DNA of 64,000 bases, from NCBI GenBank assembly GCA_937922785.1, contig CALAJQ010000025.1, forward strand, positions 1 to 64,000. The letters are read 5' to 3'. Position numbers and translations under genes: made by a program. Below are positions 40,225 through 63,323 of this stretch, piece after piece. Source of the stretch: an uncultured Acidimicrobiales bacterium. Its GTDB lineage: Bacteria; Actinomycetota; Acidimicrobiia; Acidimicrobiales; SZUA-35. Below the pieces are notes generated by a model. The model had not been told where the DNA came from. It ran no database searches and saw only the letters and a list, made by a program, of their open reading frames with translations. Within the stretch, counting starts at the first letter, position 1; each line of letters begins with the position of its first letter.

Positions 40225-42384
40225 TTAGCCTTTCATGAGGAAGGCTTCGTCTTCTTCGGCAAAGAACAGTTGGAGTTCGGCGGCTAGTTCGGGTTGATTG
40301 GCTAGGCCGGGGTCCGCATCCAAAACTTCAATTGCTGACTGTCGGGCTTGGACTACCACTTCGCCGTCTCTGCGAAGAGACGCAAGCTGTAGGTCGTTGC
40401 GACCTTTCTGACGCTCGCCCAAGATCGTTCCTTCGCCTCTTAGCTCCAGGTCGATCTCAGCGAGAATAAAGCCGTCGGTCTCAGCAACTAGTGCCTCAAG
40501 TCGAGACTCGCCGTCGGGAGTTGTAGCTTCGCCCACTAGCCAACAGCTCGACTCATGTGCGCCACGACCGACTCGGCCACGGAGCTGATGGAGCTGAGCG
40601 ATACCAAAGCGGTCGGCGTCGAGGATCACCATCACGGTTGCGTTTGGAACGTCCACTCCGACTTCGATAACCGTGGTTGCCACCAACACATCCATTCGCC
40701 CCGACCTGAACTCTTCCATCGTCTCTTCCTTTTCTGCGGAAGAGAGCCGGCCGTGTAACAGGCCGACGTTCAGACCCTCTAGCTCCAAGTTAGACAGCCT
40801 CTCATGAGTGACTTCTGCCGAAGCAACTTCGAGCTTTTCTGACTCGTCAATAAGAGGACACACAACATAAACCTGGCGACCTTCGCCAACCTGTTCTCGG
40901 ACTTCTTGCCACATCAGTTCGAGATCAAGCGGCGGCTCGCCTTCCAAAGAGCCCGGCGCCTCTACCCACTTGGTAACAATCGGGGTTCGACCAGGAGGCA
41001 TCTCGTCCAGGACGCTCACATCGAGATCGCCATAAACGGTCATGGCCGCGGTTCTTGGAATCGGTGTTGCCGTCATAACCAACACATCAGGCACCAGTTC
41101 GCCTGGACCTTTGTCTCGCAGGGCGGCCCGCTGCTCAACACCAAAACGATGTTGCTCGTCAACCACGACCATCGTCAGAGAATCAAACATGACCCGGTCC
41201 TGAATCAGAGAGTGAGTGCCCACGACAATGTCGATGTTGCCCAACATGAGATCACCCAAGATCCGCTTTGTGTCGGCGGTGCCCATTCGTGAGACCAGCA
41301 GGGCCACCTTCAATGGCCGCTCCCCCATCAACGTTGAGGGGTCGGGCACGGTTAGCTCGCCAAGCATCTTTCGGATACCGACGTAGTGCTGCTCGGCCAG
41401 GACCTCGGTTGGGGCCATCAGGGCTGCCTGATGACCGCCATCGACCGCCGCCAACATCGACGCCACCGCCACCAAAGTTTTGCCAGCGCCGACGTCGCCC
41501 TGAAGAAGCCGGTGCATTGGAACGGGCGTGGCTAAGTCAGCCGAGATCTCTGCGATCGTTCGTTTCTGAGCCAATGTCAGGTCGAATGGAACAGACTCGG
41601 CGAACTTCTGCACGAGCGGTCCATTTATGACGTGCTCCACACCGACCTGAGTCGACTCCAGCAGGCGCTTGCGCTGGACCAAGGCCAGCTGCATCCGAAA
41701 CAGTTCATCAAACACGAGCCGTCGCCGCGCTTGGCTCATGTCCTGCATTTCTTCTGGCTGATGAATCGACTTGAGCGCCATGTTCCGATCAACAAAGCCG
41801 AACTCGCGGATGATTGCATCGGGAATCGGATCGAGCACACCCCGACCTTTGGGTGGGAGCGATCGACGAAGTGTTTCGGCAATCCAACCAGCCAAGTCCC
41901 AGCTACTCAGCCCTGCTTTTTCGCTTTGCGGGTAGACCGGGATGATGCGGCCAGTTTTGTCGCCGACGAGATCGACAATTGGGTTTGTCATTTGCAGTTG
42001 CCCGCGAAACGAACCGACCTTGCCGAACACCATGGCCTGCATACCGACCACCAGCTGTTTCTCCCGCCAAGCCTGGTTGAAGAACGTCAAGGCCATCGAA
42101 GACTGCCCGTCGGTCACTGTCGAATTGACCATGGCGCGTCCCCGCACACGACGCATCGATGTGCTCTTGATTGTCACCAAGACACTGGCCTCGTCACCTT
42201 CAACCAAGTCGCCGATCCGGGCCTCTTTGGTTCGGTCTAGGTATCGGCGCGGATAGTAGGTTAGGAGGTCAAGCAGATTCTCGATCCCGACAGCTGATAG
42301 TGCCTTCTCTCGCTTCGGCCCAACCCCTTTGAGCGCGCTAACCGGACGCTCGGCAAAGTCGGCCATCGAAAGCGGGGCGGTCAC
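40225..42384 (-). CDS. recG: ATP-dependent DNA helicase RecG
   Basis: RecG remodels stalled replication forks and branched recombination intermediates. The wedge/OB domain is followed by Walker A (LLQGDVGAGKTLVAVASML), the DExH box as VVDEQHRFG, and C-terminal motifs (GRMDVLVATTVIEVGVDVPN, QLHQLRGRVGRG). Length of 719 residues is normal. The start is GTG 42384, six bases after TAATCT, indicating a leaderless mRNA; an ATG six codons in is an alternative. Confidence 0.96.
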   Translation of the reverse strand: MTAPLSMADFAERPVSALKGVGPKREKALSAVGIENLLDLLTYYPRRYLDRTKEARIGDLVEGDEASVLVTIKSTSMRRVRGRAMVNSTVTDGQSSMALTFFNQAWREKQLVVGMQAMVFGKVGSFRGQLQMTNPIVDLVGDKTGRIIPVYPQSEKAGLSSWDLAGWIAETLRRSLPPKGRGVLDPIPDAIIREFGFVDRNMALKSIHQPEEMQDMSQARRRLVFDELFRMQLALVQRKRLLESTQVGVEHVINGPLVQKFAESVPFDLTLAQKRTIAEISADLATPVPMHRLLQGDVGAGKTLVAVASMLAAVDGGHQAALMAPTEVLAEQHYVGIRKMLGELTVPDPSTLMGERPLKVALLVSRMGTADTKRILGDLMLGNIDIVVGTHSLIQDRVMFDSLTMVVVDEQHRFGVEQRAALRDKGPGELVPDVLVMTATPIPRTAAMTVYGDLDVSVLDEMPPGRTPIVTKWVEAPGSLEGEPPLDLELMWQEVREQVGEGRQVYVVCPLIDESEKLEVASAEVTHERLSNLELEGLNVGLLHGRLSSAEKEETMEEFRSGRMDVLVATTVIEVGVDVPNATVMVILDADRFGIAQLHQLRGRVGRGAHESSCWLVGEATTPDGESRLEALVAETDGFILAEIDLELRGEGTILGERQKGRNDLQLASLRRDGEVVVQARQSAIEVLDADPGLANQPELAAELQLFFAEEDEAFLMKG

Positions 42385-42435
42385 GCTCTGAGATTATCCG
42401 ACATCTATGACAGCGCGAGATAAGCGGTTCGGCCT

Positions 42436-59364: not shown

Positions 59365-60033
59365 CTATAGCCGCTTCAACAGCTCCGATTTCTTGTCTTG
59401 GAACTCTGCCTCAGTTAGCACGCCTTTGCGGCGAAGATTGTCGAGCTGCTCGATCTTTTCCGGTATGGAATGGCCTGTACCAGAGCCTGCTGTGCCGCCA
59501 CCTTGCATGGCCTCAGACATGCGCTCACCAACCCGATCGAACTTTCGATTCTCGTTGTTTTCCATCTGGTAATAAATCTCGTTCTGCACATTTAGAGGGC
59601 GGCGAATGTCGGAAAACTCTGAACTGCCTTCTTGAGATGCAGATTCGATCTCGAGATCACCAGTGCGTATCAACCGCTCAAAGAATGTTTGACGAAAGAA
59701 GACTGTGTTTATTCGCTCAAGAGGAATCTCGGTGCCTTGCCGGGTGAACACACCGGTTCGAGAGATCAGCCGGTCGGTCGTAAGAATGAATTGGGTGGTG
59801 CTCCACTGAACATAAGCAATGCCAAACCAGCCGACCGCGCCTAACAACAAAAGCCCGGCAACGATATTGGCTGCCCCCGAAGCGCCACCGTCGTTGCCCA
59901 TTGCCAAAACGATTATGCCTACAGCGATCGCACCGATTAGGGCGGCGAAGGGCTTTACGAAAAACCACCAGTGAGGCCGCAGATCCAAAACGACATCTTC
60001 GTTTTGATTGAGGAACTCTGGGACCTTGGCCAT
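59365..60033 (-). CDS. PH-domain membrane protein with C-terminal SHOCT motif
   Basis: Protein of 222 residues. Two membrane helices (about 26-44 and 54-75) precede a bacterial PH (YdbS/DUF304-like) domain (FILTTDRLISRTGVFTRQG, IPLERINTVFFRQTFFERL). The C-terminus carries a SHOCT motif (IEQLDNLRRKGVLTEAEFQ), a short helical module often seen in such proteins. Function unknown. Next to the aminotransferase gene (nine bases). Confidence 0.88.
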   Translation of the reverse strand: MAKVPEFLNQNEDVVLDLRPHWWFFVKPFAALIGAIAVGIIVLAMGNDGGASGAANIVAGLLLLGAVGWFGIAYVQWSTTQFILTTDRLISRTGVFTRQGTEIPLERINTVFFRQTFFERLIRTGDLEIESASQEGSSEFSDIRRPLNVQNEIYYQMENNENRKFDRVGERMSEAMQGGGTAGSGTGHSIPEKIEQLDNLRRKGVLTEAEFQDKKSELLKRL

Positions 60034-60042
60034 GAATAAATA

Positions 60043-61227
60043 CTACAGCGACTTTCCGATTACCTCTGCGGCAGCGGCGACGCCAGATCCGCCAGTCGGG
60101 CAGCCGATCGTCTGAAGCGCCGCTTCAATTGTGCCCAGGGTTCCCAGGATCGACGGCGGGTTCAGGTGCCCCATATGACCAATCCGGAAGCTGTGTTCGG
60201 CCTTGGCGCCAACTCCTATACCAATGGTCAGTCCGGCTCCGCCTTCGCAACAGTCACGAAGCTCATCTGCTGAGGCCTTGCCAGTTAGAACTGTTGTGAC
60301 GGCGTTGGAGCGGTGGGCTGGATCGGTGATGTTGAATTCAATTGCCCCTGGAGATGACCAAGCTTCAACCGCGGCCCGGACCGCGTCAGCCAGAACCGTG
60401 TGCCGAGCCCAAACTGCTTCCATTCCGCCTTCTTCGTTGATCATTCTCATCGATTCGCGGATGCCATACATGTGGGCGATCGGGGGTGTGCCGCTGTATT
60501 GGCTATAGATCGCCTGAGGATTCATTCGGGGCTCCCAGTCAAAGATGGCAACCCGAAGACCAGCCGTTTCATAGGCCTTTAGTGCTCTAGGACCGGCCCA
60601 ACAAAACCCCAAGCCAGGCGGAACCATCAGCCCTTTTTGAGAGCCGGCAACTGCGATGTCGACTCCCCAAGCATCCATCTCAAATTGCTCGCACCCCATC
60701 GAGGCTATGCAGTCGACCATAAGTAAGGCCCGGTGATCGGCATCGCGAACAACGTGGCCGATAGCCTCGATGTCGTTCTTCACCGAAGATCCCGTGTCAG
60801 TCTGGGCGATCAGTATGGCGGCTATTTCTTGGTCTGGATCATTGGCCAAGCGCTCAGCCAATGCTGTTGGGTCCACTGGATCGCGGTCAGTTCCGCCAAG
60901 GACTTCGACCTGTAGGCCCGAAAGTGCTGCCATGTCGCCCCAGATCATCGCAAAACGACCCGACTCACAAACCAGCACCTTGTCTCCGGCCGACAGAGTG
61001 TTACACAACGCCATCTGCCAACCGCCATGGCCATTGGAGATGGTCACGAAACTCTCGTGCTTGGTTCGTGCGATGGCGCCCAACCCGGCAAAAATTTCCT
61101 CGTTGACCTCGATCAGTTCGCCAGCGTAGATGTTGGGCATTGGGCGACGCATGGCGTCTAGAACCCGGTCAGGCACGATGGACGGGCCTGGAATAGCTAC
61201 AACTGGCGGTCCGAAGCGCAAGGTCAT
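60043..61227 (-). CDS. Class V aminotransferase (alanine-glyoxylate / serine-pyruvate type)
   Basis: PLP-dependent transaminase of 394 residues. The PLP lysine is in VAGSQKGLMVPPGLGF; other motifs are PGPSIVPDRVLDAM, SNGHGGWQMALCN, TDTGSS and MVDCIASMG. The RIGHMGHLNPP end is typical for serine-pyruvate / alanine-glyoxylate aminotransferase. Glyoxylate detoxification or serine use is likely. ATG 61227 lies six bases after TAGGCT. It shares its promoter region with the divergent helicase gene. Confidence 0.93.
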   Translation of the reverse strand: MTLRFGPPVVAIPGPSIVPDRVLDAMRRPMPNIYAGELIEVNEEIFAGLGAIARTKHESFVTISNGHGGWQMALCNTLSAGDKVLVCESGRFAMIWGDMAALSGLQVEVLGGTDRDPVDPTALAERLANDPDQEIAAILIAQTDTGSSVKNDIEAIGHVVRDADHRALLMVDCIASMGCEQFEMDAWGVDIAVAGSQKGLMVPPGLGFCWAGPRALKAYETAGLRVAIFDWEPRMNPQAIYSQYSGTPPIAHMYGIRESMRMINEEGGMEAVWARHTVLADAVRAAVEAWSSPGAIEFNITDPAHRSNAVTTVLTGKASADELRDCCEGGAGLTIGIGVGAKAEHSFRIGHMGHLNPPSILGTLGTIEAALQTIGCPTGGSGVAAAAEVIGKSL

Positions 61228-61244
61228 CGCCTTAGCCTAAACCT
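61228..61244. promoter_or_regulatory. 17-bp bidirectional leaderless promoter with overlapping -10 boxes
   Basis: The whole gap between two divergent ATGs is 17 bases. Plus strand: TAGCCT, six bases, ATG 61245. Minus strand: TAGGCT, six bases, ATG 61227. The two hexamers overlap by five bases in the near-palindrome TTAGCCTAA, and the two first codon bases are 18 bp apart. -35 elements, if any, lie inside the opposite gene. Confidence 0.6.
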
Positions 61245-63323
61245 ATGGATCCGGCCCGGTTGCTTGACAGCTTGAATTCTGAGCAGCTCGATGCCGTCAC
61301 CGCTTCAGGTGGCCCAATTGTGGTCCACGCGGGAGCAGGATCGGGCAAGACAAGGGTCCTGACAAGGCGAATTGCATGGCGAATCGCTTCGGGAGAAACC
61401 GACCCGCAGCGAGTTCTTGCCCTCACGTTTACCCGCAAGGCTTCAGTGGAGCTCAAGAAACGTCTCCGCCAAGTCGGTCTTCGCGACGACGTGCTAGCAG
61501 GCACATTTCACTCGATTGCTTTGCTTCAGCTACGGATGCGCTGGGAAGAGCGCAACATCAAGCCGCCGTCAATTATCGATCGCAAATACAGGATCATCGC
61601 TCAGCTTCTCAAGCAGGGCGGAATCCCAGCTCCGCAGGGTTCGTCGGTGGTGTTTGATGTTGTCAACGAGCTTGAGTGGACTCGAGCCCGCATGATCGGC
61701 CCTGAGGGGTATGAGGCCGCAGCGGCCAAGCAGAACCGCAGCAGCCCAATACCGGCTTCGAAGATGGCCGACCTCATGGTCAGCTACGCACAACACAAAC
61801 GCCGAAACCGCATTGTCGACTTTGATGATCTGCTAGCCCTGGCCGCCAGGGACCTTAAGGCTGACCCGTCCTATGCAGCGGCGGTGCGCTGGCGGCACCG
61901 GCACTTGTCGGTTGATGAGTTCCAAGACGTCAACCCGCTCCAATATGACCTTCTGATGCAATGGCGGGGCGAGAGCGCAGATCTTTTTGTGGTTGGCGAC
62001 CCCAACCAGGCCATTTACGGTTGGAACGGGGCCGACCCGAACTTGCTGAACGACTTCGAGAACCGCGAACCCCAGACCAAGACCTTCCGGCTGCGCCAGA
62101 ACTATCGGTCGAGCCCCCAGATTCTTCGACTGGCCGACGTCACCTTGGGCGGCCGAGCATCGGCTCTGGTTACCGACGCCGACGATGGGCCCTTGCCGCT
62201 GATAAGCGCCTATGCCACTGATGCTGAAGAGGCCGCTGGCATCGGTGACCGGATCCGAGCGTCGCGTTCGGTTGGCAGCCGCTGGTCAGACCAGGCAGTT
62301 CTGGTTCGCACCAACGCTCAGTTGGTTGTGATCGAGGCAACCCTGGCCAGCATGGGAATCCCGGGCCGCATAGCTGGGGGAAGCGGGCCGTTAAACACAC
62401 CGGAGGTCCTGAAGGCCATCCGCTTACTGTCTCGACCGGGCATCAACTTCCACGCTGCGGTTGACGAACTAGATGCAGAAGTCGAAGGAGACTCTGCGGA
62501 CGACTCCGCCGAAGGCTTTGGTAGCAATCTAGGATCGAACACCGAATCCAGCAGCCAGAAACAGCCACTCACAACCCCAGGCATAGACCCGCTCAACAAG
62601 GCCGAACATGAGCGTAGAGCGAATCTGGCAGCATTGAGCCGCCTCGCCCATGACTACATCGGCACCGACGTTCATCCAACTGGCCCCGGATTTGGCGATT
62701 GGCTTGTGGCTACCCGGGCTCATGCTGAACAGAGCGACGGTGACGCCGTAGCGTTAGCGACCTTCCACGCCGCTAAAGGTCTTGAGTGGGACATCGTTCA
62801 CATATCTGGACTCGAAGAGGGTCTTGTGCCAATTACTTACGCCGAGACGGGCGCCCAGTTGGCCGAGGAAGACCGGCTCCTGTATGTGGGGATCACCCGG
62901 GCCCGGAAGCAGCTGTTCTTGAGCTGGGCGCAGAATCGAAACTTCGGCGCACGTAGCCACAGCCGCAAGCCGTCGCCTCACCTTCCGGTTCTCGAACGGG
63001 CCATTGTTCGATTGGGGCAAAACCACCGGCCCATCGACCTGCGCGAGCAAGTAGCAAATGCCCGTCATCAGATACGAACCTCCGTTGCCACCACAGTGGA
63101 TCCCCTTCTTGATGATCTCAATGTGTGGAGGTCTCGCCGAGCCAGGGCGGCCACGGTGGCGCCGTTTGTGATCTTTAATGATCAGGTCTTGAAGGCAATT
63201 GCGGTCACAAGACCAGCCACGCTGGGTCAGCTAGGGGCCGTGCCCGGAGTTAGCGCGGCCAAGCTGTCCCGATTCGGCCCTGAGATCTTGGACTTAGTAG
63301 CCCTTCACCGCACCCGAGTTTAG
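61245..63323 (+). CDS. UvrD/PcrA-family DNA helicase, UvrD2-like
   Basis: SF1A 3'-5' helicase of 692 residues. Walker A is AGAGSGKT (29-36); further motifs are ALTFTRKASVELKKRL, VDEFQDVNPLQYDLL, GDPNQAIYGWNGAD, FRLRQNYRS, TFHAAKGLEWDIVHISGLEE and YVGITRARKQLFLSWA. A C-terminal HRDC-like segment (LKAIAVTRPATLGQLGAVPG) matches mycobacterial UvrD2. The tetracysteine motif of UvrD2 is absent. An acidic insertion (about 405-450) is low complexity. Leaderless-type promoter. Confidence 0.93.
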   Translation: MDPARLLDSLNSEQLDAVTASGGPIVVHAGAGSGKTRVLTRRIAWRIASGETDPQRVLALTFTRKASVELKKRLRQVGLRDDVLAGTFHSIALLQLRMRWEERNIKPPSIIDRKYRIIAQLLKQGGIPAPQGSSVVFDVVNELEWTRARMIGPEGYEAAAAKQNRSSPIPASKMADLMVSYAQHKRRNRIVDFDDLLALAARDLKADPSYAAAVRWRHRHLSVDEFQDVNPLQYDLLMQWRGESADLFVVGDPNQAIYGWNGADPNLLNDFENREPQTKTFRLRQNYRSSPQILRLADVTLGGRASALVTDADDGPLPLISAYATDAEEAAGIGDRIRASRSVGSRWSDQAVLVRTNAQLVVIEATLASMGIPGRIAGGSGPLNTPEVLKAIRLLSRPGINFHAAVDELDAEVEGDSADDSAEGFGSNLGSNTESSSQKQPLTTPGIDPLNKAEHERRANLAALSRLAHDYIGTDVHPTGPGFGDWLVATRAHAEQSDGDAVALATFHAAKGLEWDIVHISGLEEGLVPITYAETGAQLAEEDRLLYVGITRARKQLFLSWAQNRNFGARSHSRKPSPHLPVLERAIVRLGQNHRPIDLREQVANARHQIRTSVATTVDPLLDDLNVWRSRRARAATVAPFVIFNDQVLKAIAVTRPATLGQLGAVPGVSAAKLSRFGPEILDLVALHRTRV

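Follow-up and report, generated by a model that had tools for sequence, protein, structure and literature searches.

The 64,000-nt stretch of DNA analysed here (the window) belongs to a genome of 4.9 Mb in 45 contigs and contains an aminotransferase gene and a uvrD2-like helicase gene that diverge from a gap of 17 bp. This gap is probably a single bidirectional promoter of the housekeeping type, with one -10 palindrome between two start codons. The palindromic TAGCCTA would be read by a sigma-A-like RNA polymerase in either orientation, with the first RNA base in each orientation being the A of an ATG. Both mRNAs would then be leaderless, with their start codons serving as transcription start sites (TSSs), and each start codon would supply the -18T of the opposite promoter. 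We infer that both directions are used, with initiation exactly on the ATGs, and the two orientations of the polymerase at the gap would be mutually exclusive. The expectation that TAGCCTA is read both ways, and leaderless each way, comes from combining the published geometry of bidirectional promoters with the mycobacterial data on leaderless genes.

The support in the sequence consists of the geometry of the gap, the genome-wide spacing of -10 boxes from start codons, the presence of leaderless boxes before the orthologues of each gene, and the recurrence of the arrangement between other coding pairs. Counting against a shared promoter are the cheapness of the second hexamer, a competing TAGGTT, the non-conservation of the pair, the failure of most matches to the pattern in a strict gene test (below) and the weak -35 matches, the last of these being tempered by the fact that the leaderless promoters of this genome, and the shared sites as a group, are without a clear -35 too. 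If the proposal is true, the gap would be close to the smallest intergenic control region for two genes, with the promoter and both translation starts accommodated in 17 bp and no space left between them for a conventional regulator. The choice of orientation by polymerase at a symmetric -10 could also be tested cleanly in this natural setting, because a transcript in either direction would be an mRNA assayable as protein.

The two genes and the geometry of the gap

The gene on the minus strand (60043-61227) encodes a class-V aminotransferase of 394 aa, with a Pfam match to Aminotran_5 above the cut-off; the nearest NCBIfam model was BhcA, with a score under its cut-off. The gene on the plus strand (61245-63323) encodes a UvrD2-like superfamily 1 helicase of 692 aa with a C-terminal HRDC domain, and it matches the Pfam families UvrD-helicase, UvrD_C and HRDC above their cut-offs. 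The start codons of both genes are supported by alignment with relatives, the same codon being used in many homologues. Behind the aminotransferase gene, and separated by it from uvrD2, lies a minus-strand membrane protein gene (59365-60033) with an end that we take to be SHOCT-like.

The whole intergenic region, 61228-61244 (CGCCTTAGCCTAAACCT), is flanked by CAT at 61225-61227 and ATG at 61245-61247. The -10 hexamer for uvrD2, TAGCCT (61233-61238, plus strand), and that for the aminotransferase gene, TAGGCT (61234-61239, minus strand), each lie 6 nt before the respective ATG and overlap by 5 bp. The first-pass annotation had described two ATGs 17 bases apart, a TANNNT exactly six bases before each and a 5-base overlap, and this description is exact in the window sequence. 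In the shared TANNNTA core, TAGCCTA at 61233-61239, A-11 and T-7 of both promoters coincide on opposite strands, the reciprocal geometry reported in PMC10268837 (cited, like every article below, for the portion of its text that was accessible). The putative TSSs are the A of the uvrD2 ATG at 61245 (plus strand) and the A of the aminotransferase ATG at 61227 (minus strand), a predicted A(+1) to A(+1) distance of 18 bp, and as both start codons are ATG, the complement of each A is a T at -18 of the opposite promoter.

The reciprocal A-11/T-7 and the -18T correspond, as the predicted start distance would, to what has been reported for bidirectional promoters, in which two divergent TSSs lie 7-25 bp apart, most often 18 (PMC10268837), and in which the prevalence of 18 bp is explained by reciprocal A-11/T-7 together with the A(+1) of one promoter giving the -18T of the other (PMC12825309, PMC10268837). 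Opposing polymerases are reported to be unable to bind such promoters together (PMC12825309, PMC10268837). The earlier proposal that both mRNAs are leaderless from a shared -10 thus keeps its basis in sequence geometry at both genes, and its predicted starts fall at the commonest published TSS distance, while initiation at the two ATGs stays a prediction.

With regard to translation, both genes fit the actinobacterial leaderless pattern of a TANNNT 6-7 nt before an RTG start with no Shine-Dalgarno sequence upstream; GGAG, GAGG and AGGA were found on neither strand of the 17-bp gap. For the -35 element, neither direction at the gap has more than a weak match. Once TAGCCT is present, the second hexamer, TAGGCT, needs only one further base, the A at 61239, so that the two boxes do not count as independent evidence.

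Leaderless promoter geometry across the source genome

A sample of the source genome comprising 852,989 bases (40 stretches and the window) yielded 755 genes with a simple codon-based caller, and 733 of the called starts had 60 nt upstream and were usable for counting box offsets. TANNNT stands at a gap of 6 nt before 79 of the 733 starts and at a gap of 7 nt before 29, against a mean background of 3.5 per offset (offsets 11-44). From this enrichment, gap 6 is the leaderless-promoter geometry of the organism, and very few of the boxes at this gap would be expected to be spurious. A search for a TTGACA-like -35 at the leaderless genes of this genome found nothing clear. Among 116 divergent pairs in the sample, 8 have a box at gap 6 or 7 before both genes, and the window pair is the only one of these with a 17-bp gap.

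The offset counts bear on the possibility that uvrD2 alone uses TAGCCT and that the aminotransferase gene starts from TAGGTT, 6 bp farther up, so that the promoters would overlap and the -10 would not be common. This hexamer is indeed present at gap 12 on the minus strand (61240-61245); its use would leave the mRNA with a leader of some 6 nt, which is nearly leaderless in the terms of one survey that counted 5'-UTRs of 0-5 nt as leaderless (PMC5784534). In this genome, however, gap 12 is not enriched (2/733, versus the 79/733 at gap 6), and 10 of the 11 aminotransferase homologues of the family with an exactly aligned start have, as judged by eye, a TANNNT 6-8 nt upstream, L135 being the one without. 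We therefore consider a separate start from TAGGTT unlikely.

The base that makes the -10 symmetric is uncommon at other leaderless starts. An A directly follows the hexamer at 6 of the 79 gap-6 starts and at none of the 29 gap-7 starts, compared with 21.5% by composition (approximately the A content), and this scarcity (6/108 leaderless starts) looks as if one-way promoters avoid the bidirectional TANNNTA form. A second alternative places two leadered promoters inside the opposite coding sequences and attributes the symmetric hexamers of the gap to chance. Coding sequences can hold promoters, and the second hexamer requires just the one extra base; even so, the 200 nt before uvrD2 contain no TANNNT other than TAGCCT, the aminotransferase gene has only TAGGTT besides the shared box, the gap-6 spacing is exact on both sides, and the A after the hexamer is as rare as stated. 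Internal promoters are, on these grounds, quite improbable, and a shared -10 remains our preferred reading.

Conservation and history of the gene pair

The aminotransferase gene was found next to uvrD2 in none of 109 uvrD2 loci of relatives (tblastn, E 1e-8), 96 of which extend upstream of uvrD2 by 1300 nt or more. The first-pass annotation had looked to close relatives for conservation of the gap, and in this respect it was disappointed. Since the exact gap was not found in relatives, orthologues of the pair form no part of the argument. In the same 109 loci, the SHOCT-like gene lies upstream of and divergent from uvrD2 in 58 and upstream and codirectional in 6, and it was not found in 45. 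A homologue of the aminotransferase with at least 53% identity occurs in 29 of the 38 other genomes of the family (the G016 copy being in two fragments), and in the 28 genomes in which it and uvrD2 could both be placed, the two are on different contigs or, in G002 and G018, about 100 kb apart. With the pair absent from the loci of relatives and the homologue located elsewhere in their genomes, the aminotransferase gene seems to be an insertion between the SHOCT-like gene and uvrD2 that came to lie directly against the -10 box of the helicase gene.

The uvrD2 box itself is widespread: among the sequences upstream of uvrD2 in relatives with 39% protein identity or more (82 distinct regions, window excluded), 73 have a TANNNT 6-8 nt before a start codon, with start candidates taken from -35 to +5 codons of the aligned start. 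One could picture uvrD2 transcription as dominant, with an aminotransferase promoter that is weak or absent and minus-strand transcripts that are low-level noise of the -10 symmetry, and divergent transcripts arising from inherent -10 symmetry are reported at many promoters (PMC10268837, PMC12825309). What such noise would produce here, however, is the message of an intact gene at exact leaderless spacing, and of a gene with the above homologues in 29 of 38 family genomes, which makes this a very improbable account. Use of the shared -10 in both directions is what we continue to favour.

A DNA-damage promoter motif at uvrD2 of relatives

In mycobacteria, the RecA-NDp consensus is tTGTCRgtg followed by 8 nt and TannnT (PMC5656591), the motif is the target of PafBC (PMC6789036), and the motif engaged by PafBC is reported to sit at -26 (PMC11804915). 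At uvrD2 of relatives, TGTC[AG] stands exactly 11 nt upstream of the -10 in 36 of the 82 regions, a placement equal to that in the mycobacterial consensus, and 46 are without this strict form; spacings of 10, 11 and 12 nt between TGTCR and the hexamer were allowed, and all 36 matches are at 11. The regions examined (L085-L113 and L004-L070) belong to uvrD2 orthologues of Acidimicrobiia and related MAGs, which thus often carry the motif. At the window uvrD2, there is no TGTCR 10-12 nt upstream of TAGCCT, and the candidate identity of the gap as a RecA-NDp/PafBC promoter was rejected with the motif absent.

The frequency of the motif at uvrD2 suggests a DNA-damage regulon in Acidimicrobiia, and the rearrangement may have replaced a DNA-damage-type uvrD2 promoter by the shared minimal one. 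It is from the motif that we infer DNA-damage control of uvrD2 in the relatives, and a literature search did not find such control in these relatives in titles or abstract openings.

Within the sample of the source genome, the RecA-NDp motif is present in 4 of the 108 leaderless genes. One of them is recG in the window (40225-42384, minus strand), which has a GTG start, TAATCT 6 nt upstream and then CTGTCATAG-N8 farther up, a RecA-NDp-like arrangement at 42384-42412. The source genome (G000) also contains, at C23:215920-217064 (L341, L343), two adjacent overlapping WYL-domain genes of 334 and 314 aa that are PafB/PafC-like by arrangement, and the gene beside them is presumably signal-peptidase-like.

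Recurrence of the shared box between other divergent genes

The gap had initially been treated as a one-off, and that view has to be given up: further gene pairs with this architecture occur in the order and in the phylum. We searched with the signature CAY N(k) TANNNTA N(k) RTG, in which k=5 gives a start-to-start distance of 18 bp, k=4 one of 16 bp and k=6 one of 20 bp. At least one match is present in 121 (k=5), 63 (k=4) and 106 (k=6) of 297 genomes of the order, and in 18, 7 and 11, respectively, of the 39 genomes of the family. All family sites were classified (32 for k=5, 11 for k=4 and 24 for k=6), along with 30 order loci per k, these being one site from each of 30 among the 121, 63 and 106 matching genomes. 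Under a strict test, in which both ORFs had to be at least 50 aa long with the proposed frame the best of six by codon model, two coding divergent genes flank 12/62 sites for k=5 and 11/54 for k=6, versus 0/41 for k=4. Baselines from CAY...RTG pairs with any centre in the same loci were 0/299 (gap 17), 1/286 (gap 15) and 5/380 (gap 19). By Fisher's test, k=5 differs from k=4 with p=0.003 and from its own baseline with 3e-10 (0.005 and 9e-9 with orthologous sites collapsed), and k=6 differs from k=4 with p=0.002 and from its own baseline with 1e-7 (0.004 and 3e-6 collapsed). The spacings that occur are the ones to be expected if leaderless genes have their box 6 or 7 nt before the start, and the shorter one is without a strict case. 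In a phylum-wide set, used for breadth and without a baseline, the 26 new k=5 loci include 7 that pass the strict test, three of these 7 being the same gene pair.

Most matches to the pattern fail the strict test (50/62 in the k=5 class), and the test is conservative in that it misses pairs with Pfam support on both sides (L175, L165). In the source genome, the k=5 pattern occurs just twice, in the window and at C7:130699-130721, each time between divergent genes with Pfam hits; the second site is flanked by DUF5522 and MDMPI_N genes and fails the strict codon test. If the proposal is right, CAY N5-6 TANNNTA N5-6 RTG would serve to find candidate promoters of this kind in genomes that lack RNA data, with a minority of the matches passing the strict gene test. 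No clear TTGACA-like -35 was found at the 54 oriented promoters of 27 shared sites, a set from which orthologue copies had been removed and to which pairs outside the strict set had been added by hand.

A laxer test requiring both ORFs to be at least 60 aa gave 20/62 for k=5, 18/54 for k=6 and 2/41 for k=4; since high-GC genomes hold many chance ORFs, these figures were not kept as a statistic. Of random 17-bp CAY...RTG pairs, 141 of 836 in the loci of other genomes and 25 of 702 in the source genome satisfy the 60-aa requirement. A reversed-pattern control was discarded as well, as it often exceeds the pattern (3 versus 2 in G000) and scores different dinucleotides, and the 16-bp motif was used in its place.

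According to Pfam, the k=5 pairs include CysS with a class-I tRNA synthetase (L251), a radical-SAM/Mob_synth_C protein with a MobA-like NTP transferase (L256), biotin carboxylase with a BPL_LplA_LipB ligase (L175, which fails the strict test), a UvrD-type helicase with a polyketide-cyclase-type protein (L203), DUF2277 with a lipoprotein-like protein without a Pfam hit (L167), an esterase with an acyl-CoA-dehydrogenase-type protein (L211), AidB with BrkB (L365) and ATP-grasp with NifU (L352). For k=6 they include a pterin-binding enzyme with a PP-loop ATPase (L229), a sulfotransferase with a short-chain dehydrogenase (L328) and enoyl-CoA hydratase with acyl-CoA dehydrogenase (L325). At L178, L202 and L270, one partner only has a Pfam hit.

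Several of these pairs retain the pattern within a genus: the DUF2277 pair in 4 of 5 genomes of g11, the CysS pair in 3 of 3 of g39, the k=6 sulfotransferase pair in 4 of 5 of g44, and the AidB/BrkB pair, with its 17-bp TANNNTA gap, in 4 of 11 of g209 (L365, L366, L369 and L371, in large genomes). Identity in the AidB/BrkB set is 0.68 in the flanks and 0.61 in the centre, and in the DUF2277 set 0.55 and 0.83; the TA...TA letters are identical within the sets, as the sets were selected by them, and so give no independent test of selection. The TANNNTA pattern persists between species while adjoining bases change.

In genus g118 (L261, L263 and L264), a leaderless-looking ORF of 16-18 codons (MGRECNVNSLRFCAGQ in L263) lies across a 17-bp TANNNTA gap from a gene that we take to be methyltransferase-like, and the DNA is strongly conserved also in L372. 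The short ORF possibly encodes a leader peptide.

We would tentatively extend these observations to a module of the Actinomycetota, a reading that is quite possible without being the likelier one. Two divergent leaderless genes would share one TANNNTA and nothing else in a gap of 17 or 19 bp, with start codons as TSSs; in the 18-bp class, the ATG of each would supply the -18T of its partner, and expression of the two would be mutually exclusive event by event. Such a module may link functionally related pairs in some lineages, as in the biotin carboxylase/biotin ligase-type, radical-SAM molybdenum-cofactor protein/MobA-like and CysS/class-I tRNA synthetase pairs, and it might arise by insertion of a gene that changes the regulation of an old one, here a helicase whose orthologues often carry the DNA-damage promoter motif.

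Comparison with known systems

The founding study of bidirectional promoters with a symmetric -10 element is reportedly that of Warman et al. in 2021. Two leaderless genes with a common -10 were not found in open-access titles or abstract openings, and that founding paper may mention cases. PMC12825309 does not contain the word "leaderless", nor does the accessible portion of PMC10268837 mention it, and PMC6640164, in which both "leaderless" and "bidirectional promoters" occur, concerns an archaeon. The gap resembles the symmetric -10 promoters described in PMC10268837 and PMC12825309 in its 18-bp predicted start distance, its A-11/T-7 and -18T, and the exclusive binding expected of it. It differs from them in that both RNAs would be leaderless mRNAs, with the start codons as TSSs, and in that the whole intergenic region is 17 bp.

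The other half of the comparison is with actinobacterial leaderless genes. In M. tuberculosis, about a quarter of mRNAs begin at or close to the start codon, a TANNNT accompanies three quarters of TSSs, and no -35 consensus was found (PMC3898074); leaderless RTG starts are described in M. tuberculosis and also in M. smegmatis (PMC4633059). A legend in PMC3898074 describes divergent promoters in close juxtaposition as frequent in that species and shows one divergent pair with both mRNAs leaderless. The window genes are like those described in these two articles and in C. diphtheriae (PMC5784534) in having a -10, a weak or absent -35 and a TSS predicted on or beside the start codon. Whereas the accessible text of those articles treats such genes singly, one box would here serve two.

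Two divergent systems come close in part. The lysG/lysE genes of M. tuberculosis (Rv1985c/Rv1986) have overlapping -10/-35 motifs and one leaderless transcript, but their intergenic region is 108 bp, a LysR-type regulator is involved, and a second, separate promoter gives rise to the leaderless transcript (PMC5648196). The divergent promoters of the EcoRV restriction-modification system likewise have overlapping polymerase sites that cannot be jointly occupied; the leaderless feature is reported to be absent from EcoRV, and a C protein regulates (PMC5333194). Bidirectional promoters with a symmetric -10 are known, whereas both genes being leaderless on one -10 may be new; the wider class is the more interesting result.
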